NCBI RefSeq assembly: GCF_004777465.1
Contig: NZ_CP038462.1
Coordinates: forward strand, 1,922,001 to 1,986,000
Length of the DNA: 64,000 nucleotides
Reading direction: 5' to 3'
DNA from: Nocardioides daphniae
Lineage (GTDB): Bacteria; Actinomycetota; Actinomycetes; Propionibacteriales; Nocardioidaceae
Part shown: piece by piece, positions 12,125 to 64,000 of the stretch
Layout: every line of letters begins with the position of its first letter
Position numbering within the stretch: position 1 is the first letter of the stretch
The notes under the pieces: generated by a model
What the model saw: the letters and a program-made list of their open reading frames with translations, nothing else
Told to the model about the DNA's origin: nothing
The model's database searches: none
Translations under genes and position numbers: made by a program

Positions 12125-12218
12125 GGTCGACCATTGTGCCCGGCGCTCCACCTGGCACGTCCACGGCCCGACCGCGGACCGGGTCCCGGCCGAGCCGCTC
12201 GTTCCCGTACGCTCGGAC

Positions 12219-12308: not shown

Positions 12309-12355
12309 ATCCGACCGCTACACGGGGCGAGAACCCCGGAGGAGGAACCCGGCAC

Positions 12356-20220: not shown

Positions 20221-20270
20221 CGTACGCCCTGCGCCGACGGCTGTACGGCCGTGCACCACCGGCTGGTACG

Positions 20271-20446: not shown

Positions 20447-20477
20447 CACATCCACGAGGTCCTTGGAGAACAGATCC

Positions 20478-31394: not shown

Positions 31395-31439
31395 GTTGAG
31401 GCTCCCGCTCGTAGGCCATGGATGGCTGTCCGCGAGGCC

Positions 31440-31535
31440 GGTCTTCGGACTTGTCGAGTCACTCCTGACGGAGTGCTCGGCTCACCGCAGCGGGCCTGTG
31501 CCGGATTCTCACCGGCTTCCCAGATTCTCCCCGTT
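31440..31535 (-). promoter_or_regulatory. Cobalamin riboswitch upstream of the chelatase-cobA operon
   Basis: Minus-strand core gggaagccggtgagaatccg followed by gcacaggcccgctgcggtga and the distal gtccgaagaccggcc typical of this RNA. It ends about 45 bases before the GTG of the chelatase. It probably shuts down the five-gene operon when adenosylcobalamin is abundant. The divergent cobL start lies about 75 bases beyond its 5' end. Confidence 0.85.
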
Positions 31536-31610
31536 GTCCGTCCCCACCGTTTCCGATGGCTGGGGCGCAGGGGCACCTCACGTGTGGTGCTGACGATAGC
31601 CTCCCGTCAC

Positions 31611-38406: not shown

Positions 38407-38477
38407 CGAGAGTCTCCAGATTCGAGTCCGGGGTCCGTACGCGGGGACCCACCCATGACCCGACGACGGATGTCGTC

Positions 38478-38630
38478 AGGGCCAGCAGGTCTTCGGACTC
38501 GGATCAACCGGGAGCGGACGCCTTCCCAGGATCCGAGGATCCCAGTGGCTGCCGTTGCCGGCGTGTCCGTCCCGTCCCCTCACCGCTGCGCGTCAGTTCC
38601 GGAATTGCACCGGATTCCCTGACTCCACGT
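38478..38630 (-). promoter_or_regulatory. Cobalamin riboswitch upstream of the cobG operon
   Basis: Minus-strand core gggaatccggtgcaattccg followed by gaactgacgcgcagcggtga and the distal gatccgagtccgaagacc. It lies about 70 bases ahead of the cobG GTG. It should control cobG-cobH-cobIJ-cobM together. The internal arm between core and distal element is longer than in the other four copies in this window. Confidence 0.85.
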
Positions 38631-38640
38631 GGGAGTACGA

Positions 38641-39382
38641 CTGGCTGGCGCGACCATACCGTGCCTGAGGACAGACCTTGCGGCAGGCCCACATCCGACC
38701 GCAAGCACGCCCGTTTCTGCGCGGATCCCGCGAGCATCCTGCTGCTGTGACGCCGCCGGCCGCGGGGAGCACACGCCCACCACGAAAACCTGTGAGAACC
38801 CGGGACTGACGCGAAGCGGTATGCCGAACGGCCGATGCAACGAGCCCCGCACCACCGGTCTCGCAAGGCGCCTCGTTCCGAACAATCCCAAGCCCAATGA
38901 CTGGCCCTCACAGCATCAGTTGAAAGCCAGGACGAGCCACGCGCAGACGCTCGAGACCCACCCGAGGATTCGCGCCGTGGATAACGGCTGAGGGCAGCAG
39001 GTGGTCACGCGCGAACCTCTGCAGGTTTTGGGCTTGGGCGGTGACGCTGCCGCGCAGCGAGATTGGGGTCTGCTGAACGATCAGGGGACCCGGGGAAACC
39101 CAAAGCGCAGTGCACATCGCGCCGGCCACTACGAATCTATGAGTGCCTTCAGCACATCTGCCCCCACCGTCAACGGCAACTCGGGCGTTGGGCCAGCGTC
39201 GCAATCCGTAGCACGGCACGCAGATGCGTCATGTATGCAACAGAGCGGTTCGTCAATAATGTCCGCTTTCCTAGGCGGGCTACTCGGCCGGGCCCTCAAT
39301 TCGCCGCAGGTCCGCGGCCACCTCGAACGGAAGGTGGATTCCGGTCGCAATGCGTAAGCGTCATTGCGCTCGGGTTAGGCGG
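38641..39382. other. Region without a recognisable gene
   Basis: About 740 bases between the cobG riboswitch and the response-regulator stop. Short open frames occur on both strands (one to 39,357 on plus, one ending at 38,908 on minus), but none has a ribosome binding site or protein sense I can match. Base composition is less GC-rich than in the neighbouring genes. It may be a decayed insertion marking the edge of the cobalamin cluster. Confidence 0.4.
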
Positions 39383-45077: not shown

Positions 45078-46304
45078 ATGGTTGAGCGGCGACAGTTCGG
45101 GCAGATCATGAGGCTGCCGAGTGGCCGATACCAGGCACGCTACGCCGACCCCAAGGGTCGGGTCACCGAGGCCGGCAAGCGCTTGCGCCACAACGCGCCC
45201 CACACGTTCACCACCAAGGGAGACGCCGAGGCCTGGCTGGTGGACGAGCGCCGACTGCTGTCGGCTGGCACGTGGTCTCCCCCGGCCGTGCGCCTCATGA
45301 ACTCGTCCGCCAAGCCCGTCACGCTAGGTGACTACGCGCAAGGGTGGTTGGCTGCGCGCAAGGTCAAGGGCCAACCGCTCGCCGACCGAACCCGCGACCA
45401 CTATCAGGACCTGCTGGATCGCTTCATCCTGCCGACGTTCGGCGAGGTGCCCCTTACAGACATCTCCCCCGCCGCTGTGGCCCATTGGTACGACACCGCG
45501 GCCGCCGACCGTCCGACCTACCAGGCGCACGCCTACTCCCTGTTGCGCGCGATCATGCGTACGGCGGCGGACCCCACGAAGAACAACGGCACTCCCTTGA
45601 TCCCCTACAACCCCTGCGGGATCTCTGGCGGCGGCTCAGCCGGGGGCAAGCGCAAGATCAAGCCCGCTACGGTGGACGAGATCCTCACGATCGTCCAGAA
45701 CATGCCCACCAAGCACCGCCTCATGGTGATTCTCGCCGACAGCTGCGCCCTCCGCTTTGGCGAGCTCAGCGAACTTCGCCGCATGGACGTCGACACGAAG
45801 AACGCTGTCATCCACATACGCCGCAGCGTCGTCCGCTCGAAGTCAGCGGGCGTCGTCGCCAAGGCGCCGAAGAGCGAAGCCGGGATCCGCGACGTGCCTA
45901 TCCCGCCCGACATCCTTGACCTCGTGATCGAGCACAGGAGGCAGCATGCGGCTCCAGGACTCCAAGGGCTGATGTTCCCCGGCGCCAACGGGAGCCACCT
46001 CGCGCCCAGCGCGTTCTACGGCAAGGTCTCCAAGAAGCGTCGCGGCAAACCCGACACCAGAGGATGGGGCTGGTACGAGGCCCGTCGCCTCGCCGGCCGC
46101 GAAGATCTCCGCTTCCACGACCTTCGCCACGGCGCGCTCACGGAGGCCGCCCGCCACGGCGCCACGCTCGCCGAACTCATGGCGCTCGGCGGCCACTCCA
46201 CCAGCTACGCCGCCATGCGTTACCAGCAGGCCGCATCGGACCGACTCGCCGAGCTGGCGCGAAAGCGGGCCGAGGCGCGCGGTTGGAGGGCAGATACGCA
46301 CTAA
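45078..46304 (+). CDS. int: Site-specific tyrosine integrase
   Basis: Intact 408-residue phage-type integrase. N-terminal AP2-like arm-binding region (GRYQARYADPKGRVTEAG), SAM-like core-binding domain (TLGDYAQGWLAARKVKG) and catalytic domain with Arg in CALRFGELSELRR, LRFHDLRHGALTEAA, GHSTSYAAMRYQQ with His and the nucleophilic Tyr. It catalyses integration at the tRNA attachment site to its left. Typical of actinobacterial integrative elements and phages. The C-terminus ends RGWRADTH. A weak CCCGTG hairpin follows the stop at 46307-46322. Confidence 0.93.
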   Translation: MVERRQFGQIMRLPSGRYQARYADPKGRVTEAGKRLRHNAPHTFTTKGDAEAWLVDERRLLSAGTWSPPAVRLMNSSAKPVTLGDYAQGWLAARKVKGQPLADRTRDHYQDLLDRFILPTFGEVPLTDISPAAVAHWYDTAAADRPTYQAHAYSLLRAIMRTAADPTKNNGTPLIPYNPCGISGGGSAGGKRKIKPATVDEILTIVQNMPTKHRLMVILADSCALRFGELSELRRMDVDTKNAVIHIRRSVVRSKSAGVVAKAPKSEAGIRDVPIPPDILDLVIEHRRQHAAPGLQGLMFPGANGSHLAPSAFYGKVSKKRRGKPDTRGWGWYEARRLAGREDLRFHDLRHGALTEAARHGATLAELMALGGHSTSYAAMRYQQAASDRLAELARKRAEARGWRADTH

Positions 46305-46435: not shown

Positions 46436-47938
46436 TCAGAACCCCAGGAGTTTGCCGAACCCCGAGAAGATGGCATCGAACGACCTGGCGATCGGGTTCC
46501 TGGGCCCGTCGGCGCTGGACTTCTGCCAGAAGAGCGGGGCGTGACCGGTGAACTCGTCGTCGACGAGCGGCGTCTTGCCTCGCAGGTAGGGCCAGAACAC
46601 CTCGGTGCGATTGACGCCCACGGTCAGGCGCGAGTCGAAACCCATCACGAGGTTCTGCTCCATCCTCGTGGCGCGGCCGCGGGGGTCCGTCGCCACGACG
46701 TCACCGACGCCCTGGACGATCAGGCTGCCGGTGCCCGCGAACATGACGTAGCGCACCTGCCACGTGGCGAACGACTGGATGCCCCACCGCCAGCGCGTCT
46801 GTAGGTCCGGCGTGCCGATGACGCCCACGACGTGCTTCGGATGCATCACCAGACCCGGATGGTCCTGGAAGTCGAGGCGCATCAGGTAGGCGTCGGGGGC
46901 GTCGGGCGACGCCAGGGTCGCCGACGTGACGCCGTCGTCGCCGGTGATCCGGCTCAGGAAGTAGAGACCGGCCGCGAAGCTGATGAACGGCGCGGACGGG
47001 TCGTAGAGGATCCGACTGCGTATCTTGCCCTGCACGGGCCGCACGTACTCCGACCGCGCGGACAACACCTCCCCCGCGGACAGCTCGATCGGAAGGGTCC
47101 GCTGGGCAGCCGAGGTACGGACCTCGGCTGTCGCGCTCTCGGACCCGGCCGCCAGCCGGATCGGCGTGTGCACCCGGCTCACCACCGGCATCAGCACGAA
47201 GTAGCTGAAGATGCGTAGGGCTGCCGGCAGGAAGAGGACGAGCAGCGCGATGGCAACCAACCACTTCCACGACTGGGCCCACTGGTTGACGACCCATCCC
47301 ACGCCGGACGACTGGCCCTGTTCCAAGCTCTCCTGCTCGGCCTTCCTCTGGGCCAGCTCCGCCTCGCCGTTGTCAATCTCCCGCTCGACGCTGGACTGCT
47401 CGCCGCCCACGCCGAGTCGATCCAGCTTCTGCTTAGGGCTCAGTTCAGGGTCAGCGAGGATGGCGGCGTCGTCCTCCGCCTGGCCGAGGGTTCCCTCCAA
47501 GGTGTCGAGCGCCTGGTCGGCCTTCTCGACCGCGGCCTCGGCGGCCTTGCACTTGCTGCCGGGTGTCAGAAAGTCGATGACCTCCTGCTTGAAGTTGCAA
47601 AGGTCCTGCTGGTCGTCCCGCAGACGGTCGATATCCGCCTTCTTCGCGGCGACTGCACGACGTCCCTCCGCGATCTCGGCGTCGATCCTGGTCTCCAGCG
47701 ACGCGACCGCCTCGCGCCGGCCCGCCTCTGCGGTGCGCCGCAGTCGCTCAAGGTTGTCCTCGAGGGCTGCCCTCTCCTCGCTCACCTGCTCCAGCCGATC
47801 GCGGTCCGCCACGGCTTCCCGCACCGTGGGCACCAGGACCTGGACGAGCAGGTAGCCGAGGAACAGGGACACCACCAGCGCCCCGAGCAGACCCAGCTTC
47901 CTCAGGGCGAAACCTAGAAAGGCGGACACCAGGCGCAC
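46436..47938 (-). CDS. Membrane coiled-coil protein with AIM24-like C-terminal domain
   Basis: Intact 500 residues. An N-terminal membrane helix (GLLGALVVSLFLGYLLVQVL) is followed by about 170 residues of coiled coil (DRDRLEQVSEERAALEDNL, AAKKADIDRLRDDQQDL), a second helix near 225-250 (WLVAIALLVLFLPAALRIFS) and a beta-rich domain from about 270. The last part (FAGTGSLIVQGVGDVVATD, RTEVFWPYLRGKTPLVDDEF) resembles the TIGR00266/AIM24 beta-fold, but I hold that lightly. It begins with GTG at 47938. It is a cargo gene of the island next to the integrase. It could be a membrane sensor or scaffold; function unknown. Confidence 0.65.
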   Translation of the reverse strand: MRLVSAFLGFALRKLGLLGALVVSLFLGYLLVQVLVPTVREAVADRDRLEQVSEERAALEDNLERLRRTAEAGRREAVASLETRIDAEIAEGRRAVAAKKADIDRLRDDQQDLCNFKQEVIDFLTPGSKCKAAEAAVEKADQALDTLEGTLGQAEDDAAILADPELSPKQKLDRLGVGGEQSSVEREIDNGEAELAQRKAEQESLEQGQSSGVGWVVNQWAQSWKWLVAIALLVLFLPAALRIFSYFVLMPVVSRVHTPIRLAAGSESATAEVRTSAAQRTLPIELSAGEVLSARSEYVRPVQGKIRSRILYDPSAPFISFAAGLYFLSRITGDDGVTSATLASPDAPDAYLMRLDFQDHPGLVMHPKHVVGVIGTPDLQTRWRWGIQSFATWQVRYVMFAGTGSLIVQGVGDVVATDPRGRATRMEQNLVMGFDSRLTVGVNRTEVFWPYLRGKTPLVDDEFTGHAPLFWQKSSADGPRNPIARSFDAIFSGFGKLLGF

Positions 47939-48647: not shown

Positions 48648-51600
48648 ATGGCCATTCCCGACGCCTTGGTGGTCAGCTCGACCCACGGCTATCACCCTGT
48701 CACCACCGAGCTGGAGGATGTCCTCCGCGCCGGCGCCTTCCAGCAGCTCCTGGTCCTCGGCCCGGGCGTGAACGACGTCGTCGACCTGGTCAACGAGACC
48801 AGAATCGTGGCATCTCCTCCGGTTCAGCTTCCTCAGGGGATCTACTGGTTCTCCGGGATCGAGCCCTCAGTCGTTCTGTCCGTCACGAGTGGGACATCCC
48901 CTGGGCCCAGCGTCGCCGCGCCCTCAGACGAAGTCCTCAATGGCTCCCCCCTCGACAATGCGCTCGGATGGGTCGATGCCATTTGGGATGACGCCGCGCC
49001 CGTGTCGAAGCCTCGCTTCGCTGTCGGGGAAGACGTCCTGGTCGACAGCACCGGCCAGGACGGTGTGATTCGTCCTGGCCGCCGATACGTCAGCGGGAGC
49101 TGGCTCTACAACGTGTTCGCCGGCGGGCAGACAGTACGGCGAACCGAGGACTCGCTCTCGCAACGCCCCACGGTTGACGACGCATCGACGTGGGTCGCCG
49201 GGCAGCCTGTTCCGCCGAAACGGTTCGCCGCGACGCTGACGCGCGCCAAGTTGGAGGGCCACTTCACCGACACCATGTTCTCGTTCCGAGCGACGAGGAC
49301 GCTGTTTCGCCCGTACCAGTTCAAGCCGGTCCAGAAGCTGTTGGACACCGGCTCGCTCCGGCTGCTGATCGCCGATGAGGTCGGTCTCGGCAAGACGATC
49401 GAAGCAGGCTTGGTGTGGACTGAGATGGAGGCCCGGCGCCAGGCGGACCGAGTCTTGATTGTCTGCCCGAGCTCGCTGGTGGAGAAGTGGAAGCGAGAGA
49501 TGGAGGATCGCTTCGGCTTCCTTCTCGTCGAGCTCGACAACCCTGGCCTCGCCGACCTGCTGGAGCGTCTTGAGACCGACCGTCTCCCCCGGCGCGTGGC
49601 CTACATCAGCAGCATCGAGCGTCTCCGCGTGTGGGACGGGATCGAGCGCGCCACCGAGCTCGGCCTGCAGTTCGACCTGTCCATCATCGACGAGGCGCAC
49701 GCCTTCCGGAACTCTGACACGAAGAGCTACGAGCTCGGCGAGCAGCTCCAGGACTGGTCCGATGCTCTGGTCATGCTGTCCGCGACGCCGGTCAATTTGC
49801 GCAACCGCGACCTCTTCAACCTGCTGTCCCTGCTCGTGCCCGGTGAGTTCGAGGACGTGGAGTCCCTCGAGCGGCGCATCGCCCCCAACGCGGTGCTCAA
49901 CAGGCTCACGAAGTCGCTGACCGATCCCACGGTGACCAACGCAGAGAGGCGATCGTGGCTTGCCGAGCTGGAAAAGGACGTCTTTGGCTCGATCCTCACG
50001 ATGCGTCCCGATTTTCAGGTCCTGCGCCAGACCCTCGCCCCAGACCGGCTCGACGCGGCCGGCGCAGTGACCGTCAAACGACTGTGCGCGGAGCTCCACG
50101 GCCTGTCGGCGCAGGTCACCCGTTCACGCAAGATCGACGTCCAGGAGGAGAAGCCGCTCCGGGAGCCGCATCGCATCGACGTGGCGTTCGATGCCACAGA
50201 GGTGAAGTTTTACGAGGCGTACTTCCAGTGGTGCGTGGATAGGGCAGCACTCAGCGGTACGCCCCTCAACTTCTCTATGCAGATGCCCCTGCGCCTCGCA
50301 GGAAGCTGCCTACCTGAGGCTGCCCGCTACGTCCTGGAGTGGGGTCACTCTGACGACATCGAGTCCGAGGAAGCAGACGTACCGGCCACCAAGAGGTCTG
50401 ACCTTGCGCCGGGCCCGGAGCTCACCAAGGCTGCACGAGCGCTCACGTCCGACACCAAGTACAAGCAGTTGGTCACCGCTGTCACCGACCTCATGGCCCA
50501 GAACAAGCAGGCCATCCTCTTCACCTTCTCCCGACGGACACTGCGCTATCTGGAGGACCGGCTCGGGCGGGACTTCCGGGTCGGCGTGCTCCACGGTGGC
50601 GTGCCCAAACACCGTCGCGAACGCATCATGACCAACTTCCGGCGCGGAGAGTTCGACCTGCTCCTCGCCAGCAAGGTGGCCAGCGAGGGTCTCGACTTCG
50701 AGTTCTGCTCGGCGGTCATCAACTACGACCTGCCCTGGAATCCCATGGAGGTGGAGCAGCGCATCGGACGTATCGACCGTATCGGCCAGGTCGAGAAGAA
50801 GATCGGTGTGCTCAACTTCCACACCCCCGGAACGATCGAGACCGACATCATCGAGCGGGTGATGGAGCGGATCGAGGTCTTCGAGCACTCGATCGGAGAG
50901 CTTGAGCCGATTCTTGAGTCCGAGTGGCGCAATGTCGAGAAGCTCTTGTTCGACTTCACGCTCAGCCCAGACCAGCGTCGCCTGCGGACGGAGCAGGCCA
51001 TCCAGGCGATCGAGATGCAGGCGAAGGATCGTGAGTTCATCGAGTCGGCCGCCCCGATGCTGGTGAGCAGCGATGGCGCGGAGATCGACGGGCTGGAGCG
51101 CGACCTGCTGGCCAGCGGTCGGTACGTGGGCCAGGCGGAACTGGCGCTTCTGGTCGAGGACTGGGCAGAGACGTACGGCGGAAGCGCACGCCGGGACGGC
51201 TCGATCCTTCGGCTGCGTGGCAACGAGGAGCTCGCCGATCACGTTCAGACGTTGGTGAGGACTGGCGAACGCAGCACCATCGAGGTCCAGGAACTCGGAG
51301 CCCAGTTGCGTTCGGAGCACGACATCGTCGTCTCGCTCGACCAGGAGTACTCCAGGACCTCGGATGTGCCGCTCCTGACCGCGACGCATCCGCTGACCCG
51401 GGCAGCGGTTGGGACGCCTGGTCACCGTCACGGCCGGTTCACGCTGCTGCGCATGACGTCGTCGTCTGCCGGGGTCCGCCCGGGGAATTACCTGGCACTC
51501 CTCGCCGTGGTGCATTGGAACGGCGTCCGTCCGATCCATGAGGTGTGGTCGTCCGCTATCGACCTGACGAACCTTTCGGAGGCCGGTGATGCACTGGGCG

Positions 51601-51992
51601 CGGCCATCATGAAGGAGCTGGCCACGGCGTCATACCAAGCAGGGCCGCTTCGAGACCATCCGCATCTTCTCGAGGCTGTCGACCTGGCAACGATGAACCT
51701 GGAGGCCCGGGTGGCGACACGACGCAACGACCTGGCGCAGGAGAATGCCGCGTTCATCGCGACCCGCCGCGCCTCCTTCACCGAGGTGCACGAGCGCCGC
51801 ATGCGCGCAATCCGCGCTCGGCTCCAGACCCACATCGATCGCGGTCAAGCGAAGATGCTTCCGCTCGCCGAGGGCAAGCTCCGTAAGGAGCAGGCCCGAT
51901 ACGAAGCCCAGATCGCGGGCCTCGAGTCGGCTGCCGCGCCGTCCCTGACCACCGACGACCTGGCTGTCTGCGTCGTGGAGGTCGCCGGATGA
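48648..51992 (+). CDS. SNF2-family DNA helicase/translocase
   Basis: Intact 1,114-residue SF2 protein. About 200 N-terminal residues of unknown type precede the motor: Walker A IADEVGLGKTIEAGLVWTEM, DEAH box in LSIIDEAHAFRNSDT, motif III LSATPVNLRNRDLFN, then the C-terminal helicase lobe with LLLASKVASEGLDFE and QRIGRIDRIGQVEKK. About 300 residues with a coiled-coil end follow. The overall plan is like RapA and the SNF2 motors of defence systems. Its stop overlaps the start of the SF1 helicase gene. No methylase or nuclease domain is recognised. In a defence island it probably remodels or travels along foreign DNA. Confidence 0.85.
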   Translation: MAIPDALVVSSTHGYHPVTTELEDVLRAGAFQQLLVLGPGVNDVVDLVNETRIVASPPVQLPQGIYWFSGIEPSVVLSVTSGTSPGPSVAAPSDEVLNGSPLDNALGWVDAIWDDAAPVSKPRFAVGEDVLVDSTGQDGVIRPGRRYVSGSWLYNVFAGGQTVRRTEDSLSQRPTVDDASTWVAGQPVPPKRFAATLTRAKLEGHFTDTMFSFRATRTLFRPYQFKPVQKLLDTGSLRLLIADEVGLGKTIEAGLVWTEMEARRQADRVLIVCPSSLVEKWKREMEDRFGFLLVELDNPGLADLLERLETDRLPRRVAYISSIERLRVWDGIERATELGLQFDLSIIDEAHAFRNSDTKSYELGEQLQDWSDALVMLSATPVNLRNRDLFNLLSLLVPGEFEDVESLERRIAPNAVLNRLTKSLTDPTVTNAERRSWLAELEKDVFGSILTMRPDFQVLRQTLAPDRLDAAGAVTVKRLCAELHGLSAQVTRSRKIDVQEEKPLREPHRIDVAFDATEVKFYEAYFQWCVDRAALSGTPLNFSMQMPLRLAGSCLPEAARYVLEWGHSDDIESEEADVPATKRSDLAPGPELTKAARALTSDTKYKQLVTAVTDLMAQNKQAILFTFSRRTLRYLEDRLGRDFRVGVLHGGVPKHRRERIMTNFRRGEFDLLLASKVASEGLDFEFCSAVINYDLPWNPMEVEQRIGRIDRIGQVEKKIGVLNFHTPGTIETDIIERVMERIEVFEHSIGELEPILESEWRNVEKLLFDFTLSPDQRRLRTEQAIQAIEMQAKDREFIESAAPMLVSSDGAEIDGLERDLLASGRYVGQAELALLVEDWAETYGGSARRDGSILRLRGNEELADHVQTLVRTGERSTIEVQELGAQLRSEHDIVVSLDQEYSRTSDVPLLTATHPLTRAAVGTPGHRHGRFTLLRMTSSSAGVRPGNYLALLAVVHWNGVRPIHEVWSSAIDLTNLSEAGDALGAAIMKELATASYQAGPLRDHPHLLEAVDLATMNLEARVATRRNDLAQENAAFIATRRASFTEVHERRMRAIRARLQTHIDRGQAKMLPLAEGKLRKEQARYEAQIAGLESAAAPSLTTDDLAVCVVEVAG

Positions 51993-53995
51993 CGCCCCAC
52001 CCGGAACTTCCTTACGAGCAGGCCAAGAACAAGGAGTACCTCGACAAGCTTGAGAGGAGGCTCCAGCGCAACCCGCTCACCGACGTTGCCCGCAACGTCC
52101 TGTGGATCGACGCTGTCAACCACCAGATCAAGGCCAACGGCTACCACCACCCGCTCCTCGGGCGCGTGGGGTGCGACACCGACGACGAAGAACTGCGGGA
52201 CTTCTACATCGGTTCACGATTCCTGCCGGAGTTGGGCGTGCCGGTCTACAGCTGGGCCGCACCGATCGCACGACTCTTCTTCCAGCCCGATGCCGACGGC
52301 TCCGAGGACGTCGTCGTCCGACGCACCTTTGCCCACAGGTTTACCGACATCAGCGACCTCGACGACGAGTGGGTTCGAGAAGGCGTTGACTCCCCTTTCA
52401 TCAGCAAGGAGTTGAACGTCCCGGCTCCAGCGCCGACCTCGACCAGGCGACGTCGCGCGGCTTCTCCCGCTCCTGCGTCCCATCAGCCTTCGCCGAGCAC
52501 ATCGACGGGCGGGGAGGGAACGCGCTCCGACGCGCCTGCGGCCCCTGACACGTCCACGGTTCGGATTCGGAAGGCCCTGGACATCAGGGAAGGGATGCGC
52601 GCCGAGGAGGCCGTCCTCAAGCGCCTCACCGCTCCACGCCAGGACAAGCTTCAGTCCGTTCTCGCTCTCCTGCAGCCCGACCAGCACGCCCTGGTCTCAT
52701 GGCCGGTCGACGACAGCCTGGTGGTTCAGGGGCATCCTGGCACTGGCAAGACAGTGGTGGCCGCCTACCGTGCCGCCTACCTCGTCAATCCCGTGCTCTA
52801 CGAGGACGAAGGCGCGCTGGCCGCACGCGCCAGCAAGCCTCTGAAGGTGCTGGTCGTCGGCCCCACCGCGGGATATGTCAGCCACGTGGACGGACTCATC
52901 CAGCCACTCGCGGCATTCGACCAGGTGCGCGTCACCCATCTGCACGACCTGATGGCCGAGACGACGGGTCTGAAGGGACCGTGGCCGGGCGCCATCGGGG
53001 GTGAACACAACGATGTCGACGCCCAGGCCCGCATGTTTGCCGAGCGCGCCGCCCGGATCCACGAACAGAACCACCGATGGCGCGAGGGAAACGGCGCCAG
53101 GCGGGAAAACATCAAGACGGTCTACGAGCTGATCCGGCGCAACGGAACGCCGGAACGCCGTTTGGTCGAGGACGCTGACCAGGTCGCGTGGATGGCGAAC
53201 CTTCCGGCGTTCGAGCAAGCGTTCAAGCGACGCTATCTGCCGTTGATGGCACAGTGCCGTCTTGCCTACAACCCGATCCCCGACGGCATGCGCTACGACC
53301 ACATCATCGTCGACGAGGCACAGGATGTGTCTCCCATCGAGTGGAACGTGCTGGACCAGTACCTGCGACGCGACGGTCATTGGACACTGGTCGGCGACAT
53401 GAACCAGCGCCGCTCCGACGTCACATACGGATCGTGGCACGAGATCGCCGACCACCTCGCCCTGGCCGCCGACGGCGAGTTTCGGCCGCAGGTGATGACA
53501 CGCGGCTACCGTTCGACCGGCGCGGTTCTGCGCTTCGCCGACCGCCTCCTGCCTGCCAAGCAGCGCGGCAACCAGACCGTGCAGGCTGACGGCGAGCCGG
53601 TGAAGGTCGATCACGTCACGCGCCCTGAGATGTTGTGGGTGTCTGCTCTGCAAGTCGCCCACCAGCTTGCGACCAAGTACGCCGACGGCTCCACCGCAAT
53701 CATCACCGTCAATCCCGGCGAGATGATGGGTGAGCTGGGCCGCGGCGGTTGGCGACGCAAGGGCTCCGGGTTCCATATCTGGCAGAAGGGCGAGCTGACA
53801 GTTCGACTCTACGCGCCGGAAGACGCCCGCGGCCTCGAGTTCGACGCCGTCGTGGTCGTCGAGCCGGGTGCGTTTCCGGAGAATCTCGGCCGCACAGGGC
53901 AGCTGTACACGAGCCTCACCCGCGCCAACCGAGAACTCGCGGTGATCTGGCACCGCAACATGCCCGACGCGCTACGGCGCGCTGCTCGATCCTGA
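51989..53995 (+). CDS. SF1 helicase (UvrD/HelD-like)
   Basis: Intact 668 residues. The N-terminal ~240 residues are unassigned and contain a Ser/Pro-rich linker (about 145-190). The motor has motif I VVQGHPGTGKTVVAAYRAAY, motif II IIVDEAQDVSPIEW, LVGDMNQRRSDVTYGS, motif IV-like GYRSTGAVLRFAD and motifs V-VI RGLEFDAVVVVEPGAF, LYTSLTRANRELAVIW. The nearest relatives by motif are UvrD/Rep and HelD. It is coupled to the SNF2 gene by ATGA, so the two helicases are made together, an uncommon pairing. A possible terminator hairpin (CACCCC/GGGGTG, 54004-54020) follows. Confidence 0.87.
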   Translation: MTPHPELPYEQAKNKEYLDKLERRLQRNPLTDVARNVLWIDAVNHQIKANGYHHPLLGRVGCDTDDEELRDFYIGSRFLPELGVPVYSWAAPIARLFFQPDADGSEDVVVRRTFAHRFTDISDLDDEWVREGVDSPFISKELNVPAPAPTSTRRRRAASPAPASHQPSPSTSTGGEGTRSDAPAAPDTSTVRIRKALDIREGMRAEEAVLKRLTAPRQDKLQSVLALLQPDQHALVSWPVDDSLVVQGHPGTGKTVVAAYRAAYLVNPVLYEDEGALAARASKPLKVLVVGPTAGYVSHVDGLIQPLAAFDQVRVTHLHDLMAETTGLKGPWPGAIGGEHNDVDAQARMFAERAARIHEQNHRWREGNGARRENIKTVYELIRRNGTPERRLVEDADQVAWMANLPAFEQAFKRRYLPLMAQCRLAYNPIPDGMRYDHIIVDEAQDVSPIEWNVLDQYLRRDGHWTLVGDMNQRRSDVTYGSWHEIADHLALAADGEFRPQVMTRGYRSTGAVLRFADRLLPAKQRGNQTVQADGEPVKVDHVTRPEMLWVSALQVAHQLATKYADGSTAIITVNPGEMMGELGRGGWRRKGSGFHIWQKGELTVRLYAPEDARGLEFDAVVVVEPGAFPENLGRTGQLYTSLTRANRELAVIWHRNMPDALRRAARS

Positions 53996-54778: not shown

Positions 54779-57700
54779 TCATCCTGCCCCGCCTTCACGT
54801 GCTTCCCTGATCTCGTCTGCTCGAGCGCGGAACACCTCACTCTCGGGATCACCCTTCGCCTCCAGCTCGGCGGCCAGAAAGCTCAGGAACTCCACGAAGG
54901 CGTCATCCTCACTTCCCGGGTCTGCGGCGAGCAGGTGGTCGTAGATGCCGACGACTCGGCGGTAGCAGACCCAGGAACTTTCATCGTCGTCGAGCGCGTC
55001 TGCCAGGACTATCAAGGCGCTGATGAGGACGCGTCGAAGTCCGTTCTCAGCAGGATGACGCTCGACGGCCGTGTCAAGGACGGACACGGCACGCTCTGCG
55101 GGTACGACCGCCTCGGCCCTTTTGCCAGACATGCAGTGCGCCGCAGCAAGCTTGGACAACGTCTCCCCCAGGCGTTCTGCGACCTGGAAGTCCAGTGGAT
55201 GTTGGTCATGCTCCACCGCGTACAGGTCAAGCAGGCGAGTGGACACTTCGACGGCTTCGTGCCACTCCTTCAGACTCAGGTGGGCGTTCCGCAGCAGCGT
55301 GAGATCCAACCATGCGCGAGAGCGGGACGGGCCCCCGTCGGCACCAGCTTCGGCCAGCACCTGCTTGATCCGCAGAGCTCGCGTCAGGTGTTCAACTGCG
55401 TCACGCAGATCCCCGGACTGCACTAGGCATAGGCCCAGAGCGGAATGGCACTCCGCCACGTCCCGCTCCTGGTCCCACTGATCAGGCTGGGGATGCGCCT
55501 CAAGGTGGTCGAGAAGTGAGCGGTAGAGCGAAGCAGCGTCACTCCACCTGCTGCTGGACATTGCTTTCAGGGCGATCTTCCGGAGCTCCAGCCGGTTCAC
55601 TTCCACGATGGTTGACGTCCAGTCGGCGTCCATCAACTCACGAACCGCCAATGGCAGCTCGAGAGGCTCGCCGCTCGCGTACCCGCTGGCCGCAGCCCCC
55701 CGACTCTGGATGTCATCATCGGACAACGTCGACCACGCAGCATCCTGACGCCCCCGGTGGAGCTGCACACTGCCGAGGAGCACACGCTCGCGTGTCAGGT
55801 CCGGTTCGCCGAGTGCGGCCTGCAGACAGCTCTCCGCGTCCATCCACTCTTGTTCACGGATGTGCAGCCCCCGAGCGCGACCAGCCACCCACGCACAGTT
55901 TGCTTGAACGAACTCACTCCCTCGAGATTCGCCGCCGCCTTCCGGTAGCACTCCTTGGCCTCCGATCTCCGACCGAGGTCGTTGAGGAGCTGAGCCCTCG
56001 CCGCCATAGCGTGGCGACGAGAAAGAGTGAGCGTTCATCGCCAGGGACAGGGTTAAGGATCGGGGTCTCGAGTTCTTTCGCTGCAGCTGCTGCAAGGTCA
56101 ACTCGCGTGTCTGACGAGCCGCTCGCTGCATACAGTGACGCGAGAGCAGAGACCCATGAGGAATCAGGATCGGGCGACTCCCGGATGAGGCCTTCGTACA
56201 ACCGCACCGCTTCGTCGCGCCCGGCCCGAGCTTCCTCCCATTGGCCAAGCCTCTCCTGCCCCTCGGCCAATCGACATACGAGCGTGGCGCGAAGCGACCG
56301 GTCCACGTCCACGTCCATATCTGCGAGCAGGGCTTGCAGCACGGCCACGGCCTCCCGCCGCATCAAGGCAGGCGTCTCGAGCCCACATGCCGCCATGACG
56401 TCCTCGCCGACGTTGGCCCGCTCAAGCTCGTCACTCTGCTCCAACCACAGCTCGGCCCAGCGTGCTCCTCCCACCGCCCCACCTGCGAGGAGCGCCGGCG
56501 CGATGTCACGTACTCGCTGGAACATGAGCGCCACCGTGGGCAACGCAGGCCGGTCCACGAACGCCCTGAGCGCGTGAGCAGTACATGTGCCTGCGCGTGA
56601 GGTCCGCAGACAGAGGCGAGGGCGTCGACGTTGGCCAGGAGGACTCCGACCTCCGGCTCAGTGACGGTGAGTCGCTTCACCCATTCGAGGCACAGAAGCT
56701 CGACCAGCTCCGCAACCACGGCCTCGGCGACGTGCTCCCGGACCGCACGGGACGCGAGCTGGTGCATGCGCAGACGGCCATCTGACCACGATCCTTGGAG
56801 CTCGACCACGTGGTGGTCGATCAGTCGTTGAACCACCTTCGGCATTCCGTGGCGCCGCTCGAGCGTGTTGCCTCCCGCGACCCAGCCAGCCACCGCATCT
56901 GTGTCCCACAGCCACGTGGGGTGTCCATCAGCGGCTTGCACCGCTGCCACGAGCGCAGCACGCTCCGCCAGCCCATCGGGAAGGCCTTGGCTCGCCTTCG
57001 CGAGTGCCATCCTCCAGGTCGCCGCGATCAACCGGGGGTAGCCACCATGGTCCAGCTCGTCTGCCACCTGGTCCAACGGGGCCTCTGACGCAAACTCCCT
57101 GAGCCACTCCTCAATGGTCAGGGCGTTCGTGGAGATCGTGCCGGCCGCGATGGCCAGCCCCAGGGGATGGTTGCCGACCGCCTGCGCCACGGCATCCAGC
57201 TCCGCATCTGTCGCCGCAGCGAAGGCCGATCGTCCCGTGCGTCCGGCGTGGACGTTGTTCCGGAGGAACTCACGGGCTTCGTCAGGCTGGAACTGTGCGG
57301 CCTCGAAGACCTGGCCGTTGCGGCGCATGCGCGGCGACCGGCTGGTCGTGGTGACCAGCGTCCGGCCGCAGGGGTTCGTCCCTGTCGGAAGAAGATTCGC
57401 AGCGATGAGCGCGTCAGCCTCCGCGTTGTCGAGGACGACCAGCCACCTCCATGGACTCGTCGCAAGGGTGTCCAGGACCGCGCGGGACTCCTGGTCGGGA
57501 GATCGTGACCCTCCTGCAGTGGGCATCAGGCCACGGGCGCGGAGGGCCTCACCGACTTTGCCCAGGGCGTCGTGCACTGCGGCGACGTCAGCGGACTCCA
57601 CCCAGACGAGCAGGGTTTCCCCCTGCCGGGTTCGGAGGGCGTCTTCCATGATCTTGCGTGCGGTGTAGGACTTGCCCAAGCCCGGGCCACCCGTCAGCCA

Positions 57701-58573
57701 CACGCGCCGCTCGCCACTGGTCGCCCAGTGGTGCCCGATCTCGAAGTCGACGAAGCGGCTCTGGTACCCAGGCCCGACGTCCGGCAGCGGCCCGATGTAG
57801 ATCGGCGCGTCGCCAGTCACGTCGTCAGTGTCTTTCCCCCGCCACGACGGCGGGTTGACGAGGGTCTCCGACCGAGCGTCCGGCTCGTCCCAGGTCCATG
57901 TGAGGGAGCGAAGCCTCTCGTCGTCCTCGGTGACGGAGGCAGACACCGGCCCGTCCAACGCCGTGGTGCGGCCGGCGAGGATGCGCTGGGCGACGAGCAC
58001 GACCAGTCGAGCTCCCTGCTTGCGGAACCCTTGACCCGCCGACTTGCCTGAGCACTTCCGGTTGGCACGCGCCGTCCACCGCATCGTGGCGAAGTCGGCT
58101 GTGCTGCCGGGGACGGGAATGTCTCTTGCGACCAGGCGACCGCCACCGACATGTGGCCTGATCGGGAGGAGTGACCGAGCTTCACTGGCTTCGATGTTCC
58201 AGTAGATCTGCCCCAGGAGAAGGACGGCCTCCTCGCTCAGGGGACGCGACTTGTTGAGCATCTTCCTGGCGGACTGGTCGGCAGCGACCTGGGTGAGTGC
58301 GAGGTAGAGACCCTCGCGGAGCAGGTCAGCGGTGATGCGTGTGGTGTACCCCATAAGACACGTCAATAGGTCGTCGAGACCCCCCGGAAGCCCCAGACGA
58401 ACCACCGGGTCGTCGTCGACGGTGCCGTTCTCGCTGAGGCCATGCCCCTTCGCCATGGAGTCCAGGAATGCAGCGAGCACCACCACGGCGTCTGCTGTGG
58501 CGGGCGCCTCTCCCAGCACCTCCCTCAGCCCGTGGTCGAGGTCCGCGGTGATCTCCAGCTCAAAGGTGGACAC
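54779..58573 (-). CDS. STAND (NB-ARC-like) ATPase with TPR-like tail (three frameshifts)
   Basis: About 1,264 residues once three single-base losses are restored (near 56,569, 56,025 and 55,905). Residues 1-250 are an unassigned N-terminal domain. The NTPase follows: Walker A VWLTGGPGLGKSYTARKI, Walker B WRWLVVLDNAEADALI, then LVTTTSRSPRMRRNG and NHPLGLAIAAGTIS typical of NB-ARC/STAND modules. The last ~550 residues are helical repeats of TPR type (YRSLLDHLEAHPQPDQW, AECHSALGLCLVQSGDLRDA, EHLTRALRIKQVLAEAG). STAND proteins sense a phage or stress signal through the repeats and trigger an effector. No nuclease, TIR or protease domain is recognised at the N-terminus. It begins with GTG at 58573 without a clear ribosome binding site. 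Confidence 0.75.
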
Positions 58574-58691: not shown

Positions 58692-59183
58692 ATGCAGACC
58701 CCCCAAGCCCACTTCATCGCCTAATTCGCGGCTCGCCGCCCTGGTCGACATCGAGAACCTCCTAATCCAGGACGACCCGCTGAGCAGCCGCGAGGCCGGG
58801 ACTCTCCTCACCATCGTGCGGGGACACCTCGGAGCCGTCCCCACCACACCCGCACCGCGACGGGTCCGAGCATCCTGCGGCGACATGCGGCGGCGCTGAG
58901 CAGCTTCGGAGGCGGCCTCACCCTGGTCGAGAGTTCGCCGGACGCGGCGGACATCGCCCTGATCGAGGCCGGGCGTGTACTCGCCGAGGCAGGCGTGACC
59001 GACCTGGTCGTCGTCAGCGGCGACCACGCGTTCGTCGAGCTCGCCGAGGTCGCTCGTGTGCACGTCCTCGCGCAACCCGGCAAGCTGAGCCGTCGCCTAC
59101 GGCTGGCCGCGACCAGCGTCACGCTCCTCCCTGACCACCGCGTCGCTGCAGCACAGGCGCTGACCGAGAGGGCAGGAGCATGA
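58692..59183 (+). CDS. NYN-domain (PIN-like) ribonuclease (two frameshifts)
   Basis: About 163 residues. RLAALVDIENLLIQDD at the start carries the first NYN-type acidic residue, and ESSPDAADIALIEAGRVLAE and DLVVVSGDHAFVELAEVA carry the others. This is the metal-dependent RNase fold related to PIN domains. AGGAGA precedes the ATG at 58692. The C run after MQT has one extra base (otherwise a stop follows at 58,722), and one base is missing near 58,870. Its stop overlaps the ATG of the KH-domain gene, so the two are co-translated. It probably cleaves RNA; the target is unknown. Confidence 0.7.
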
Positions 59184-59737
59184 GCTCCGCAGTGTTGGAC
59201 CCGATCATGTTCGGTGCCGCGGTCTTCATCGTCGTGGCGGTCCTCGTGGCCGTCACCCGCAAGCGACCACAGTCCACGCATCTCGTCGGCCTCCCTGCCG
59301 ACCTACGCCGCCGTTACTCCCGGCACATCAGGCAGCGCATGGTCGAGCGAGGCGTCAGCAGGGACGAGGTCGAGGCCACGCTCGCGACCCCGGACCGGAT
59401 GGAGCACGACCTCGCCCAGGCGAGCATGCGGTTCGAGAAAGACTTCCATGAGCGCATCCTCAAGGTGTGGGTGGTGCGTGAGCCCCACGCGGCGTGGCCG
59501 CCCACGGCCGAAGTCGTCCTGAAGACGACCGCATGGGTGCACACCACCAGGTTCGAGGTGCCGTCGGAGTGTGTCGGCAGGCTGATCGGACGTCAGGGCG
59601 CCACGATCCGAAGCATCCGTGAGTCCACCGGTGCCCGGGTCTGGATCGACGACAACGTCGTGCACCTGAGCGCCGACAACCGCCGCCCCTTCGAACAGGC
59701 CAAGCACCGTATCCATGAGCTCATCCGGAGCGCATGA
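59180..59737 (+). CDS. Membrane-anchored DUF4258-KH domain protein
   Basis: Intact 185 residues. One N-terminal membrane helix (MFGAAVFIVVAVLVAVTRKR) is followed by a DUF4258-like segment (RHIRQRMVERGVSRDEVEAT, FHERILKVWVVREP) and a C-terminal KH RNA-binding domain whose GxxG loop is GRQG in VGRLIGRQGATIRSIRE. This combination would hold RNA at the inner face of the membrane. It overlaps the NYN nuclease gene by 4 bases, so the pair probably works as RNA binder plus RNase. It lies just upstream of pglW. Confidence 0.75.
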   Translation: MSSAVLDPIMFGAAVFIVVAVLVAVTRKRPQSTHLVGLPADLRRRYSRHIRQRMVERGVSRDEVEATLATPDRMEHDLAQASMRFEKDFHERILKVWVVREPHAAWPPTAEVVLKTTAWVHTTRFEVPSECVGRLIGRQGATIRSIRESTGARVWIDDNVVHLSADNRRPFEQAKHRIHELIRSA

Positions 59738-59771
59738 ACCCCTGGCCAGCGCCGGCAACTACCATCCCCCA

Positions 59772-60086
59772 ATGGACACTCCTCTCTTCGGCGACGACGT
59801 GCCCTCGAGTCCCCCCACCAGCAACCCCGCCCCGGCCCAAATCGCGGACTGGCAGGTCGACCTGCTCCGCAACGCGTTGGACGCCCGCGGCCTCACCGAC
59901 CAGCAGGCCCGAAAGAGCCTCATCGAGCAGCACGCCGGTCGCCCTCTTGCCTCCCTTCGGCATCTCACCTCCGAGGAGGCGCTGCGGGTGATCAGCTCGC
60001 TCGGGCGCGACGCTGGCAGGACGCAGCGCAGCGAGGGTTCCCTCTGGGACGAGCGTGAGGACGACACCTGGATCGACCGGCTCTGA
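59772..60086 (+). CDS. Small protein upstream of pglW, function unknown
   Basis: 104 residues, mainly helical, with a Pro-rich start (DVPSSPPTSNPAPAQIADWQ), a central ALDARGLTDQQARKSLIEQ and LTSEEALRVISSLGRD, and an acidic end. No domain is recognised. The ATG at 59772 lacks a good ribosome binding site; an in-frame ATG at 59715 inside the KH gene is possible. It is 88 bases before pglW on the same strand and may be part of that operon. Confidence 0.55.
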   Translation: MDTPLFGDDVPSSPPTSNPAPAQIADWQVDLLRNALDARGLTDQQARKSLIEQHAGRPLASLRHLTSEEALRVISSLGRDAGRTQRSEGSLWDEREDDTWIDRL

Positions 60087-60174
60087 GCCGATTCACCGTC
60101 GAACCACCCACACCACCCGTCCCATCTGGATAGGGTTGGCGCACGCCCAGGACCAGCAGAGGAACAACCCACCG

Positions 60175-63100
60175 ATGAAGCCAGATTCTCCGAACTGGAT
60201 CCTCATGGGCGAGCCGGCCTCACCGGCGGAGCAGGCCGCGCTCGACGCGTTCCGTGAGCTGTTGCCCGAGGACGGTCTCACCCGCGCCTGGGTCAACCTC
60301 ACCTTCCTCGACCTCGACGGCCGCGCCGCGGAGGTCGACGTCCTCCTCCTCACGAAGCGCGGCTTCTTCGTGGTCGAGCTCAAGGGCTGGCACGGTACGG
60401 TCGCGGGCAACCAGCAGAGCTGGCACCAGATCACGCCGGGGGGGCAGGTCCGCCACTACTCCAACCCGTTGAAGCTGACGATCAGCAAGGCGAAGCGGCT
60501 CAAGAGCCTGTTGCAGCAGGTGAACCCCAACGCTCCTGTCCCCTATCTAGGGGCGCTGGTGGTGATGCACGGCCACGGGTCCTCGATCGAGCTCGACGGC
60601 CTGGGGCGTACGAACGTGCTCGCGCTGGACGGCTACCAGCTGACGGGCGGGTTGCCGACGCTGGGCGCCTTCCTGGCCAGCCAGCCGGACAACCCGCACC
60701 ACATCGTCGACCGTCCGACCGCCACCGCTGCCCGCAAGGCGTGCGACATGGCGGGGTTCACCGCGACGCCGCGTCAGCGCAGGATTGGGCAGTACGTCCT
60801 CGACGACGGCGACCCCGTGGCCGTCGGGCAGGACTGGCAGGACTTCGTGGTCAGCCACCCGGTGATGGACACCAAGCGCCGGTTGCGGCTCTTCGACCTG
60901 CCGCCGCAGTCGTCTCCGGACGAGCGTGAGCGGATCGAGGCGAGCGCCCGGCGCGAGCTGCGTCTGACCGAACCGTTGCACCACGACGGAGTGGACCGTC
61001 CGCTCGACTACCTGGTCACCGACTCGGGTCCGGCGTTGCTCTTCGACGACTGGCCGGGCGCACAGCCCCTCGACCAGTTCCTGGCGTCGCGCGGCGACTC
61101 CCTCGACTTCGACACCCGCATCGCGCTGATCCGCCAGATCGGCGAGGTGTTGCGGTACACCCACAACCGGCACCTGGCCCACCGGGCGCTGGCACCCAAC
61201 CGGGTGTGGGTGCGCGAGGAGGACTCCCGTGGTCCCCGCATCCGGATCCGTGACTGGTACACGGGTCAGCGCGAGGCCAGCACCCGCACCAAGGTGACGG
61301 CCCTGTCAGCCGGCCTGACCGACGTACGTGGCGCGGTCGACCAGGACGACTGGATCTATCTGGCCCGTGAGGCGCTGCACGGCGCCGAGGAGCTGCCCAG
61401 CATCCCGCTCGACGTCTACGGCCTCGGTGCCCTGGCCTTCCTGATCCTCACCGGTGAGCCGCCCGCGACCACCCTGGCTGACCTGCAGGCGCGCTTCACC
61501 CGCGACGACGGCCTCGACCCGAGCTCCCTCACCCCGGAGATCCCGGACCAGTACGCCGATGTCGTACGCCGCGCCACGGCGTTCGCGGAGCCCGAGCGCA
61601 CCGCGTCGGTCGACCAGTTCCTCACCGAGCTGGACGCTGCAGCGCGCGCGGTCCGTCCGGCCGAGCGCGACCCGCAGCCGGTCGCGGACCCCCTCGATGC
61701 CCAGAGCGGTTCGGTCATCGCCGACCGCTTCGACGTGCTGGAGCGGCGCGGGAGGGCTCGACGGGGACGGCGCTGCTGGCGGTCGACTACGACAGTGACG
61801 ACACCCGTCCGATCATCCTCAAGGTGGCGCGCAACGACGCCGCCGGGGAACGGCTCGCGGTCGAGGCCGAGGTGCTGGAGCAGCTCGACCACCCGCGGGT
61901 GGTGCGGCTCATCGGTGGCCCGATCCGGATCGACGGGCGCACGGCGCTGCTCCTCTCCGACGCCGGCAAGGAGACGTTGGCAACCCGGATCGCCACAGAG
62001 GGCCGGGCGACCATCGAGCAGCTCGAAGGCTACGGCCGTGACCTGCTCGAGGCTGTGGCCCACCTCGACGAGCAGGGGCTCTTCCACCGCGACATCAAGC
62101 CCGCCAACCTGGCGATCTCGCCCGACCCGGCACCCGCAAGCCGCGGCTGACGCTCTTCGACCTGTCGTTGGCGCGTGAGCCGCTGGACAACACCACCTCG
62201 GGCACGCCCGGCTACCTGGACCCCTACTTGTCGCAGCGCCGTCAGTACGACCGGGCCGCGGAACTCTGGTCGGTGGCGGCAACTCTCTTCGAGATGGCGA
62301 CGGGCAACCCATTGTGGTGGCCCGAGGGAACCAACGGTCCGTTGACGCCCGACGAGGCGCCGGTGGTGATGTCCACCAGCTTCGAGGACGCGGTGGCCGA
62401 GCCACTCACCGACTTCTTCCGCCGGGCGCTGGCCCCGAAGGCGCCCGAGCGTTACGCGGGCGTCGCGGAGATGGCGCAGGCCTGGGCGGCGGTCTTCGCC
62501 GATCTGGATGCCGGCACCGACGGCGCCGGGGGCGACGACGAAGCGGCAGCTGCCGCCTCGCTCGCCACGCCGCTCAACAGTGCGGGACTGAGCGCCCGGG
62601 CACTGTCGGGCGTGCTGCGGCTCGACGTGTTGACGGTCGGCGACCTGCTCGGCGTGCCGCCTCACCGGATCAACGCCGTGCGTGGCCTGGGTGAGCACTA
62701 CCGCAAGGAGATCCAGAGGCGGATCCGCGAGTGGCGTGAGCGTCTCAGCGCACCCTCGAGCGTCGAGGTCGTCCCGGGCCGCGGCGTCGAGGGTGTGGTG
62801 CGGGTGCTGTTGCAGGTGCCGTCGAGCTCGAAGTCCGACCAGACCCCGCTGCGAGCCCTCGTCGGGCTGGACCACGAGCCCGGTCCCACGCCGCTGTGGC
62901 CGACCGTCGCCCAGGCCGCGGAGCACGCCGGGGTCAGCCAGGATGCGATGACCTCGGCGCTCAACCGAGCCGCGAAACGGTGGGCCAAGCTCGACTCCGT
63001 GGCCCAGGTCCGCGCAGACCTGGTCGCCCTGCTCGCCGGCGACGGTCGTGTGATGACGCTGACTGAGCTGGCGGTGGCGCTGGCCGGGCGGCTCGGCTCC

Positions 63101-64000
63101 CAGCTGGAAGGCACGGCGCGCCGTGACCACTCCGTAGCGCTGATCCGCGCCGCCCTCGAGGTCGAGGAACGGGAGGACGAGCCCCGGCTGACCATCCGAC
63201 GCCCCTCCCCCGGCGCGACCCCGTTGGTGGCGCTGACCGAGTCGGCCCAGACGGACCCCACCGCCCCAACCGGCGAGCGCGCGCACCTGTCGGCCGACGC
63301 GCTCACGGAGATCGCCGTGGCCCTGGGGCGGCGCGCCGACGACCTGGTCGCCGACGGGGTCGTGCCCGCGGCCCGGGCCCGCGCCGACCTGCGCTCCCTC
63401 CTGCCCCCCGCCCAGGACCGACTGGTCGAGCTGAGCGACGAGCGTCTGGTGCGGCTCGCCGCGGCGACCTCCACCACGGCGGCAGTCTCTGGCTTCGGCG
63501 AGCTCTACCCGCGCAGCCTGCCGGTCGCCGACGCGATCGACCATGCACTGCGCGGCCGACCGGGGCGAGTCATCTCGGAGATGTGGGTGCGCCGCCGCGT
63601 CTTTTCTCGCTTCCCCGACCTGGCGGCGACGATCCGAGCCACCCCGAGCTCGACCCGCTGGTGCTGCAGGCCCTGCCGGGCATGGCCTGGAACGGCACCG
63701 AGTACGCCGCCCGCGACACCACCGACGTCTCCCAGTCGGTCACCGGTTACGCGACCAGCGTGGCTTCCACCTCCGCCGTCGAAGTGGACCGCACATTGCG
63801 TACGTCCCTGCGGACGCACGCTCCCGTCGCCCTGGCCGTGGCGCCGCACCGCTACCTCCAGGCGATCGACAGGCTGGCGTCCCTCTACGACGTCGAGGTC
63901 GTGGACGTCTCGCTCATGGTGGTGGAGACCAGTCGGGCGTTGGCGGCCGATCAGGAGGTGCCGTGGGAGGTCGTGCTGGAGGCCGACGCCGCGGAGCACG
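60175..64000 (+). CDS. pglW: BREX type 2 kinase PglW with NERD and two kinase-like domains (three frameshifts, cut by window edge)
   Basis: About 1,275 codons, open at the window end. A NERD nuclease-like domain (about 15-130; LDLDGRAAEVDVLLLTKRGF, FFVVELKGWHG) is followed by a degenerate kinase domain (about 250-500; HLAHRALAPNRVWV where HRD should be). A second kinase domain (about 515-750) has LFHRDIKPANLAI and TLFDLSLAREP with SGTPGYLDP. An HhH/alpha-CTD-like stretch follows (LRLDVLTVGDLLGVPPHRIN), then a helical tail. Bases are missing near 61,757, 62,129 and 63,635. The ATG at 60175 follows AGAGGA. PglW is part of the Pgl/BREX type 2 phage-exclusion system with PglX, PglY and PglZ, which would lie to the right. 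Confidence 0.82.

Follow-up and report, generated by a model that had tools for sequence, protein, structure and literature searches.

Here we report a pair of overlapping helicase genes in a 64,000-nucleotide stretch of the Nocardioides daphniae genome (bases 1,922,001–1,986,000 of a one-contig, 3.56-Mb genome; this whole stretch is termed the window, and coordinates refer to it unless another locus is named). The first gene (48648..51992, + strand) encodes an SNF2/RapA-like ATPase of 1114 residues with intact motor motifs, which by PADLOC, NCBIfam and PDB matches and by motif conservation resembles DrmD and the helicases of BREX-related (BR) systems. The second (51989..53995, + strand) encodes a 668-residue helicase of superfamily 1 (SF1) with a divergent, HelD/HelR-related motor, and its start overlaps the SNF2 stop in a four-nucleotide ATGA. 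We favour the reading, at a probability of about 0.5, that the two motors constitute an interchangeable DNA-translocation or remodelling module that is employed in anti-invader defence in Actinomycetota; the evidence suggests a shared plug-in part of known defences rather than an entirely new one. Each kind of motor is known, and it is the two-motor module of a HelD-related SF1 helicase and a DrmD-like SNF2 ATPase that appears to be new here. The original prediction, made from the letters of the window, was exact in the coordinates, lengths and overlap of the two genes. It was also right that they are intact among broken genes: the motor motifs are whole, and an NB-ARC/TPR gene, PglW, PglX and PglZ are broken in the assembly. 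In alignments of 49 SF1 and 41 SNF2 relatives the motor motifs of both proteins are present and strongly conserved, and the overlap of the genes makes a fixed production ratio of the two motors plausible.

Homologous pairs are found at five other loci: in a Nanopelagicales metagenome-assembled genome (L005), in two genomes of the same genus as our own (L027 in G065 and L028 in G066) and in two genomes of a second genus (L033 in G119 and L041 in G186). Their SF1 proteins are 62% (L005), 64% (G065), 52% (G066), 47% (G119) and 43% (G186) identical to that of the window, and a more distant full-length relative in genome G192 is 33% identical. The SNF2 gene lies directly upstream of the SF1 gene at all six pair loci, and at six of the seven loci with a full-length SF1, the exception being G192. 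The junction is a 4-nt ATGA or GTGA overlap in five of the six pairs, while in G065 the genes abut, TGA being followed by GTG; the SF1 starts of L005, L028 and L033 were set by family alignment, and longer upstream starts are also open. The distance matrices of the SNF2 and SF1 proteins correlate at r=0.945 over 36 pairs, compared with a highest value of 0.372 in 2000 permutations. These pairs were drawn from the top 120 matches for each of SF1 and SNF2 (38 pairs, minus two with a short member), with location on the same contig presumed from equal contig size. Among the matches listed, at least 37 of 72 SF1 proteins on contigs of at least 6 kb share their presumed contig with an SNF2 protein, a figure that is a floor and not a rate. 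Because homologous pairs with a like junction recur at five other loci and the two distance matrices agree so closely, these comparisons indicate that the pair is a conserved, co-inherited unit of overlapping genes, associated beyond chance.

Full-length SF1 relatives are sparsely distributed, occurring in 1/58 (our own genome), 3/59 (our own, G065 and G066), 2/97 (our own and G119), 2/49 (G119 and G186) and 2/79 (our own and G192) genomes of the sets searched. A family-level SNF2 was found in one of 60 genomes other than our own (G300). A scan of viral contigs with the SF1 alignment returned 31 stretches that fit the pattern, none of them a relative, and among 45 plasmid records with SF1 matches none had a single place covering 80% of the protein.

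All six pairs lie among defence genes, in differing company. At every locus at least one neighbour matches a PADLOC model at E≤1e-30, and at this threshold 31 PADLOC families are represented among the 47 open reading frames (ORFs) of at least 200 residues that flank the six pairs, compared with two families (mad3 in three ORFs, mad8 in one) in 61 control ORFs. The control regions are centred on HelD-type genes from five of the pair genomes (all but that of L005), 61 of 66 ORFs being counted after the five central HelD-type genes were left out, to correspond to the omission of the pair itself from the other set; length and codon composition, and not a gene caller, served to select the ORFs, and a few are spurious in the pair set and the control alike. 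At L005 the pair closes a run of genes for HmaB (526 bits), a GmrSD_N protein (103 bits, Pfam) and HmaC (915 bits, with a Swt1-like HEPN domain), the SNF2 ORF following 41 nt behind HmaC in the same direction. At L027 it follows the Mod (706 bits) and Res (1076 bits) genes of a type III restriction–modification (R-M) system and a PDC-S68 gene (1414 bits), whose stop is overlapped by the SNF2 gene by 4 nt, and in G186 a LeoBC gene (164 bits) lies 6 nt behind the SF1 gene in the same direction, with an MkoA/MkoC-like protein upstream and a type IIG R-M gene (861 bits) and a GmrSD-like gene as further neighbours. The pair is therefore closely joined, in one direction, to defence genes at three loci (L005, L027 and G186). 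In G066 the two GmrSD halves lie in separate frames and are oriented divergently to the pair (HEC-06, E 1.3e-34), and in G119 the company is BREX type 1, with BrxA, BrxC (1460 bits), PglX (1150 bits), PglZ (899 bits) and BrxL (1133 bits), plus LeoA (221 bits).

A defence role is thus likely, as judged from association. The prediction of a defence island is borne out, and the pair recurs among defence genes at the five other loci, in different contexts. The idea that it is independent of known systems fares worse, since at L005 and L027 the pair sits at the 3' end of a series of such components. These same two loci favour a rather unlikely alternative, namely that the pair is the leftover of a larger Hma-like or type III-like operon, still intact because the loss is recent or because it remains useful elsewhere: there, methylase/ATPase or R-M genes stand upstream of the pair in the same direction, whereas the pair of the window is preceded by a gap of ~710 nt and an oppositely oriented gene. 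However, the pairs of G066, G119 and G186 also have no tightly linked upstream gene, and the motor motifs of the family are conserved, which suggests a unit that is able to stand alone. LeoA/LeoBC-type genes adjoin the pair in the two genomes of the second genus (1139-5034 of L033 and 4944-8835 of L041). In G192 the SF1 gene without SNF2 lies beside a gene for a 2102-residue PDC-S37/Hhe-type protein (917 bits; 2078-10861 of L050).

The SF1 protein derives from the HelD family over its whole length. A profile of the 49 family members aligns with a profile of 17 HelD-type proteins over residues 5-665, the N-terminal region included, at an hhalign probability of 100 and E 5e-58; the 17 are two-motif ORFs from 30 loci tried, assigned to the type without an individual check against a curated model, and two of them lack the DWR motif. 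Against HelD in the PDB the SF1 protein scores 90 bits as a single sequence and 185 bits as a profile, and against the NCBIfam HelR model 122 bits, short of the cut-off of 750. The prediction had left about 200 N-terminal residues unassigned; residues 5-135 (52001..52393, + strand) align with the HelD N-terminal domain, and the stretch that follows, residues ~146-200 (52424..52588, + strand), is a variable linker that is poorly conserved in the family (0.24 in the bin 151-200). In spite of this likeness, the family departs from HelD in two respects that would matter for RNA polymerase binding. The DWR motif occurs in 0/49 members, compared with 15/17 of the HelD-type proteins, SWAAP (28 members; residues 88-92 in the window protein, in place of the HelD DWRAP), SWDAP (11) or other variants (10) standing in its place; parts of PMC8655204 report that DWR is invariant in HelD. 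Motifs I and II are separated by 184-209 residues (median 187) in the 49 members and by 250-289 in the 17 HelD-type proteins. As set out in parts of PMC7749160, the clamp-opening domain and the primary-channel loop of mycobacterial HelD sit between these two motifs, and the family may possess a shortened remnant of the clamp arm at this place. Phylogenetic analysis of 69 proteins groups the 49 SF1 members in one clade (support 0.85) that is joined by the G192 protein (0.90), with the HelD-type proteins apart. Taken together, whole-length homology, the altered motif, the shorter motif I-II stretch, the separate clade (49/49) and the overlap with an SNF2 gene identify the SF1 protein as a divergent, shortened offshoot of HelD/HelR. 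A protein of 1143 residues from the Streptomyces conjugative plasmid pSP01 (7752-11183 of L060) groups with the HelD-type proteins and is far longer than HelD.

This ancestry raises the question whether the pair acts on RNA polymerase, clearing or stalling the transcription of invading DNA. The nearest solved relatives of both proteins are recycling factors (RapA at 121 bits for SNF2, HelD at 185 bits for the SF1 profile), and the SF1 profile aligns with HelD-type proteins in full. Given that DWR is absent in all 49 members and the motif I-II stretch is shortened, and that RapA is perhaps merely the nearest solved DrmD-like SNF2, we consider such a function improbable. RapA is a general transcription-recycling factor, and on this ground the two genes could also have a housekeeping task in repair or transcription recycling and merely drift into islands. 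HelD is likewise described as a general transcription-recycling factor in parts of PMC8655204. A housekeeping origin is nevertheless hard to credit in view of the patchy distribution of the SF1 family, the defence-gene neighbours and a separate HelD-type gene (L055) that our own genome carries and that falls outside the SF1 clade. Identity of the SF1 protein with the housekeeping HelD was rejected on account of this separate gene and the patchy distribution.

The SNF2 protein is DrmD/BR-helicase-like according to its profile matches, albeit far under the DrmD cut-off. Its top PADLOC model is DrmD (PDLC02623; 419 bits over residues 196-1088), followed by BrxH (183 bits) and HmaA (155 bits); in NCBIfam it scores 319 bits against DrmD (cut-off 610) and 160 bits against RapA (cut-off 576), missing both cut-offs, and its best PDB match is RapA at 121 bits. 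Some 200 N-terminal residues had been thought unassignable here as well. In part this stands: residues 1-135 have no match in a Pfam search, a PDB search with residues 1-181 gave two chance-level matches only (E>1), and the region up to residue ~120 (48648..49007, + strand), which has no Pfam or PDB match, reaches a conservation of 0.52 within the family. The claim was too wide in that BLASTP alignments to the DrmD-like SNF2 proteins of Aminobacter, Sphingobium and Methanomethylovorans begin at residues 120, 139 and 185, and the alignment to the SNF2 of G300 runs from residue 63 onward. As this extension is partly common to the G300 protein, which has no SF1 partner, it is by itself no marker of the paired branch. 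A conserved [DE]xK with a preceding conserved acid, or a conserved HxK, is absent from both the SNF2 and the SF1 family, as judged by a motif check that is not a test of fold.

A comparison with named systems places the pair near several of them and within none. DISARM class 1 was rejected: DrmD is the best PADLOC model for the SNF2 protein, but the DrmD equivalog cut-off is missed and no DrmA, DrmB, DrmC or DrmM partner was found by the pair. Pfam detects no DrmA, DrmB, DrmC or methylase in 11 other ORFs of the window, and none is among the 25 stronger of the 31 neighbour PADLOC families. The prediction that no methylase, nuclease or DrmA/B-like gene accompanies the pair therefore holds with regard to DISARM partners and overlooked the methylase-bearing BREX type 2 locus 6 kb downstream. 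Hma was likewise rejected for the window, because the HmaB and HmaC models match one of the 47 neighbour ORFs each, both in L005. There HmaB and HmaC precede the pair, and its SNF2 falls into the same broad group as HmaA; the Hma system is treated in parts of PMC8565338 and PMC12839542. In contrast, the SNF2 proteins of the pairs score 149-155 bits against HmaA and 402-419 against DrmD, and no HmaB or HmaC is encoded in the window. Canonical HmaA usually bears a nuclease, whereas the SNF2 family shows no conserved nuclease-like motif pattern in the motif check. For BREX-related types 1 and 2, sections of PMC12839542 propose that restriction is carried out by the SNF2 helicase, which in most cases has a nuclease fused to it; the BR type-3 helicase is free of a nuclease fusion and goes with PglZ. 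The terms UvrD, HelD and DrmD do not occur in the main text of that paper. The pair resembles the BR type-3 helicase in having no recognisable nuclease, hence our proposal of a borrowed one. Gabija, which also employs an SF1/UvrD helicase (GajB), was rejected: the GajB match covers part of the core at 37-47 bits, and no GajA is among 25 of the 31 neighbour families.

The closest tested precedent is ARMADA type II of Escherichia coli, in which a RapA-like SNF2 and a UvrD-family motor belong to one anti-phage system. According to parts of a preprint (PMC12458937), deletion of any of its four genes (ArmA-ArmB-ArmC-ArmD) abolished protection, as did Walker A mutants of either the SNF2 or the UvrD-family protein, and the defence is direct and non-abortive. 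The conjecture of an undescribed system thus goes too far, inasmuch as the combination of SNF2 and UvrD motors already has a precedent there. Whether the pair is itself a partial ARMADA or DISARM locus is a narrower matter. In its favour, the pairing of a DrmD/BrxH-type SNF2 with a UvrD-like helicase recalls ARMADA type II (PMC12458937, in part). However, ARMADA has its own PglX-like methylase and YprA helicase, neither of which adjoins the pair in the window (Pfam detects no methylase or YprA-type helicase domain in 11 other ORFs); PglX (11 kb downstream) and BrxHI (22 kb) are components of BREX type 2. Furthermore, the DrmD cut-off is missed, and ArmD has a RelE-like N-terminus where that of the pair SF1 aligns with HelD. 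This distinction from ARMADA draws on its published description and not on ArmA or ArmD sequences, and we regard a partial locus of either kind as very unlikely. The pair is not described in parts of PMC12839542, PMC12458937, PMC8565338, PMC3710099, PMC7641849 and PMC11090510, and none of the titles and abstract openings listed in literature searches mentions it; an earlier mention in the full texts or supplements is possible.

How might two motors contribute to defence? Double-stranded DNA is the track of SNF2 translocases, and UvrD-type SF1 motors move along single strands. In the mechanism that we propose for the interchangeable module, the SNF2 ATPase would bind the double-stranded DNA of an invader and travel along it, and the SF1 helicase, a HelD derivative with altered RNA-polymerase arms, would act together with it by stripping bound protein or opening the DNA. 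Since no nuclease is recognisable in either protein, a neighbour (PglZ, type III Res, GmrSD or type IIG) or host nucleases would have to destroy the DNA; alternatively, the outcome could be a purely mechanical block of the invading DNA. If this holds true, a transcription-recycling motor of the HelD family has been recruited into immunity, and motor pairs travel as a module among BREX, BREX-related, type III R-M and other loci. A two-gene unit of this kind is well suited to asking what nuclease-free helicases contribute to immunity, a question that DISARM, BREX and similar systems also pose.

Several observations weigh against a defence module of this nature. The G192 SF1 has no adjacent SNF2, its genome containing only partial SNF2 matches (best E 7e-15), and conversely the G300 SNF2 (38% identical) has no adjacent SF1. 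Shared species history is left in by the permutation test and adds to r, and the six loci represent few lineages, all of them actinobacterial. The L005 contig begins inside HmaB (profile positions 568-965 of 973), and an HmaA gene upstream is therefore possible. In our own genome, G066 and G119, that is three of the six loci, the pair lies outside the transcription unit of the neighbouring system, so pair and system may merely share an island. Either protein may harbour a cryptic nuclease fold, and the protective role itself is argued from association.

More distant SNF2 relatives (28-38% identical), on Aminobacter and Sphingobium plasmids and in Methanomethylovorans and G300, have neighbours other than SF1. 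On the Aminobacter and Sphingobium plasmids these partners are proteins of 587-589 residues with a putative actin/Hsp70-like signature; neither has a Pfam match, and the Sphingobium protein has one PDB match at E 0.055. The G300 SNF2 adjoins a DnaK-like protein (65 bits), and the Methanomethylovorans partner contains a Sacsin domain and is annotated as HSP90 family. The non-SF1 partners beside DrmD-like SNF2 proteins are located at 12146-13915 of L061, 11916-13679 of L062, 11813-13441 (- strand) of L072 and 12138-15479 of L063. An exchange of partners by the SNF2 lineage is possible, three plasmids and one genome being too few to claim it. Hsp70-like proteins, like SNF2 proteins, are already reported within CoCoNuT systems and next to them in parts of PMC11090510, so this side of the pattern has a precedent. 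In the most far-reaching version, a stand-alone, nuclease-free two-motor cassette would use its DrmD-type SNF2 and a repurposed HelD to clear protein complexes, possibly including transcribing RNA polymerase, from invading DNA; unrelated systems would recruit it, and the SNF2 would swap its second ATPase (HelD-like SF1, Hsp70/actin-like or Sacsin-like). This version we put forward as a long shot.

In our own genome the pair is separate from, yet beside, a frame-broken BREX type 2 locus, which starts at 60055, 6 kb downstream on the same strand, and extends beyond the window as far as ~77.8 kb. All six components are present, namely PglW (461 bits, PDLC02512), PglX (1158), PglY (1223), PglZ (503), BrxD (638) and BrxHI (703), and neither gene of the pair is among them. 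PglW, a NERD and kinase protein, extends over two frames, its first piece at 60055..62178 (+) and its second at 62168..64000 (+), these being the two of the 47 neighbour ORFs that match the PglW model; the PglX ORF matches from profile position 279 and the PglZ ORF stops at 639 of 910, while PglY, BrxD and BrxHI have long open frames. The breaks may be either true decay or sequence errors. Directly 5' of PglW, at 59180-60086 (+), lie genes for a DUF4258 and KH-domain protein and a small ORF, and between the pair and BREX the NB-ARC/TPR STAND-like gene (54779..58573, -) is split over several frames.

On the other side, the gene across the ~710-nt gap encodes a 500-residue protein divergent from the pair (46436-47938, -), whose sole domain trace is a sub-threshold match to DUF4407. 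A tyrosine recombinase/integrase gene (45078..46304, +) is situated at the left of the lower-GC stretch. The longest direct repeat between 38.0-46.8 kb and 47-90 kb measures 15 bases, and no tRNA genes were found in the window or in 90 kb. Further to the left, four cobalamin riboswitches are clustered within 26 kb, at 12208-12318 (+), 20266-20453 (+), 31431-31582 (-) and 38467-38660 (-).

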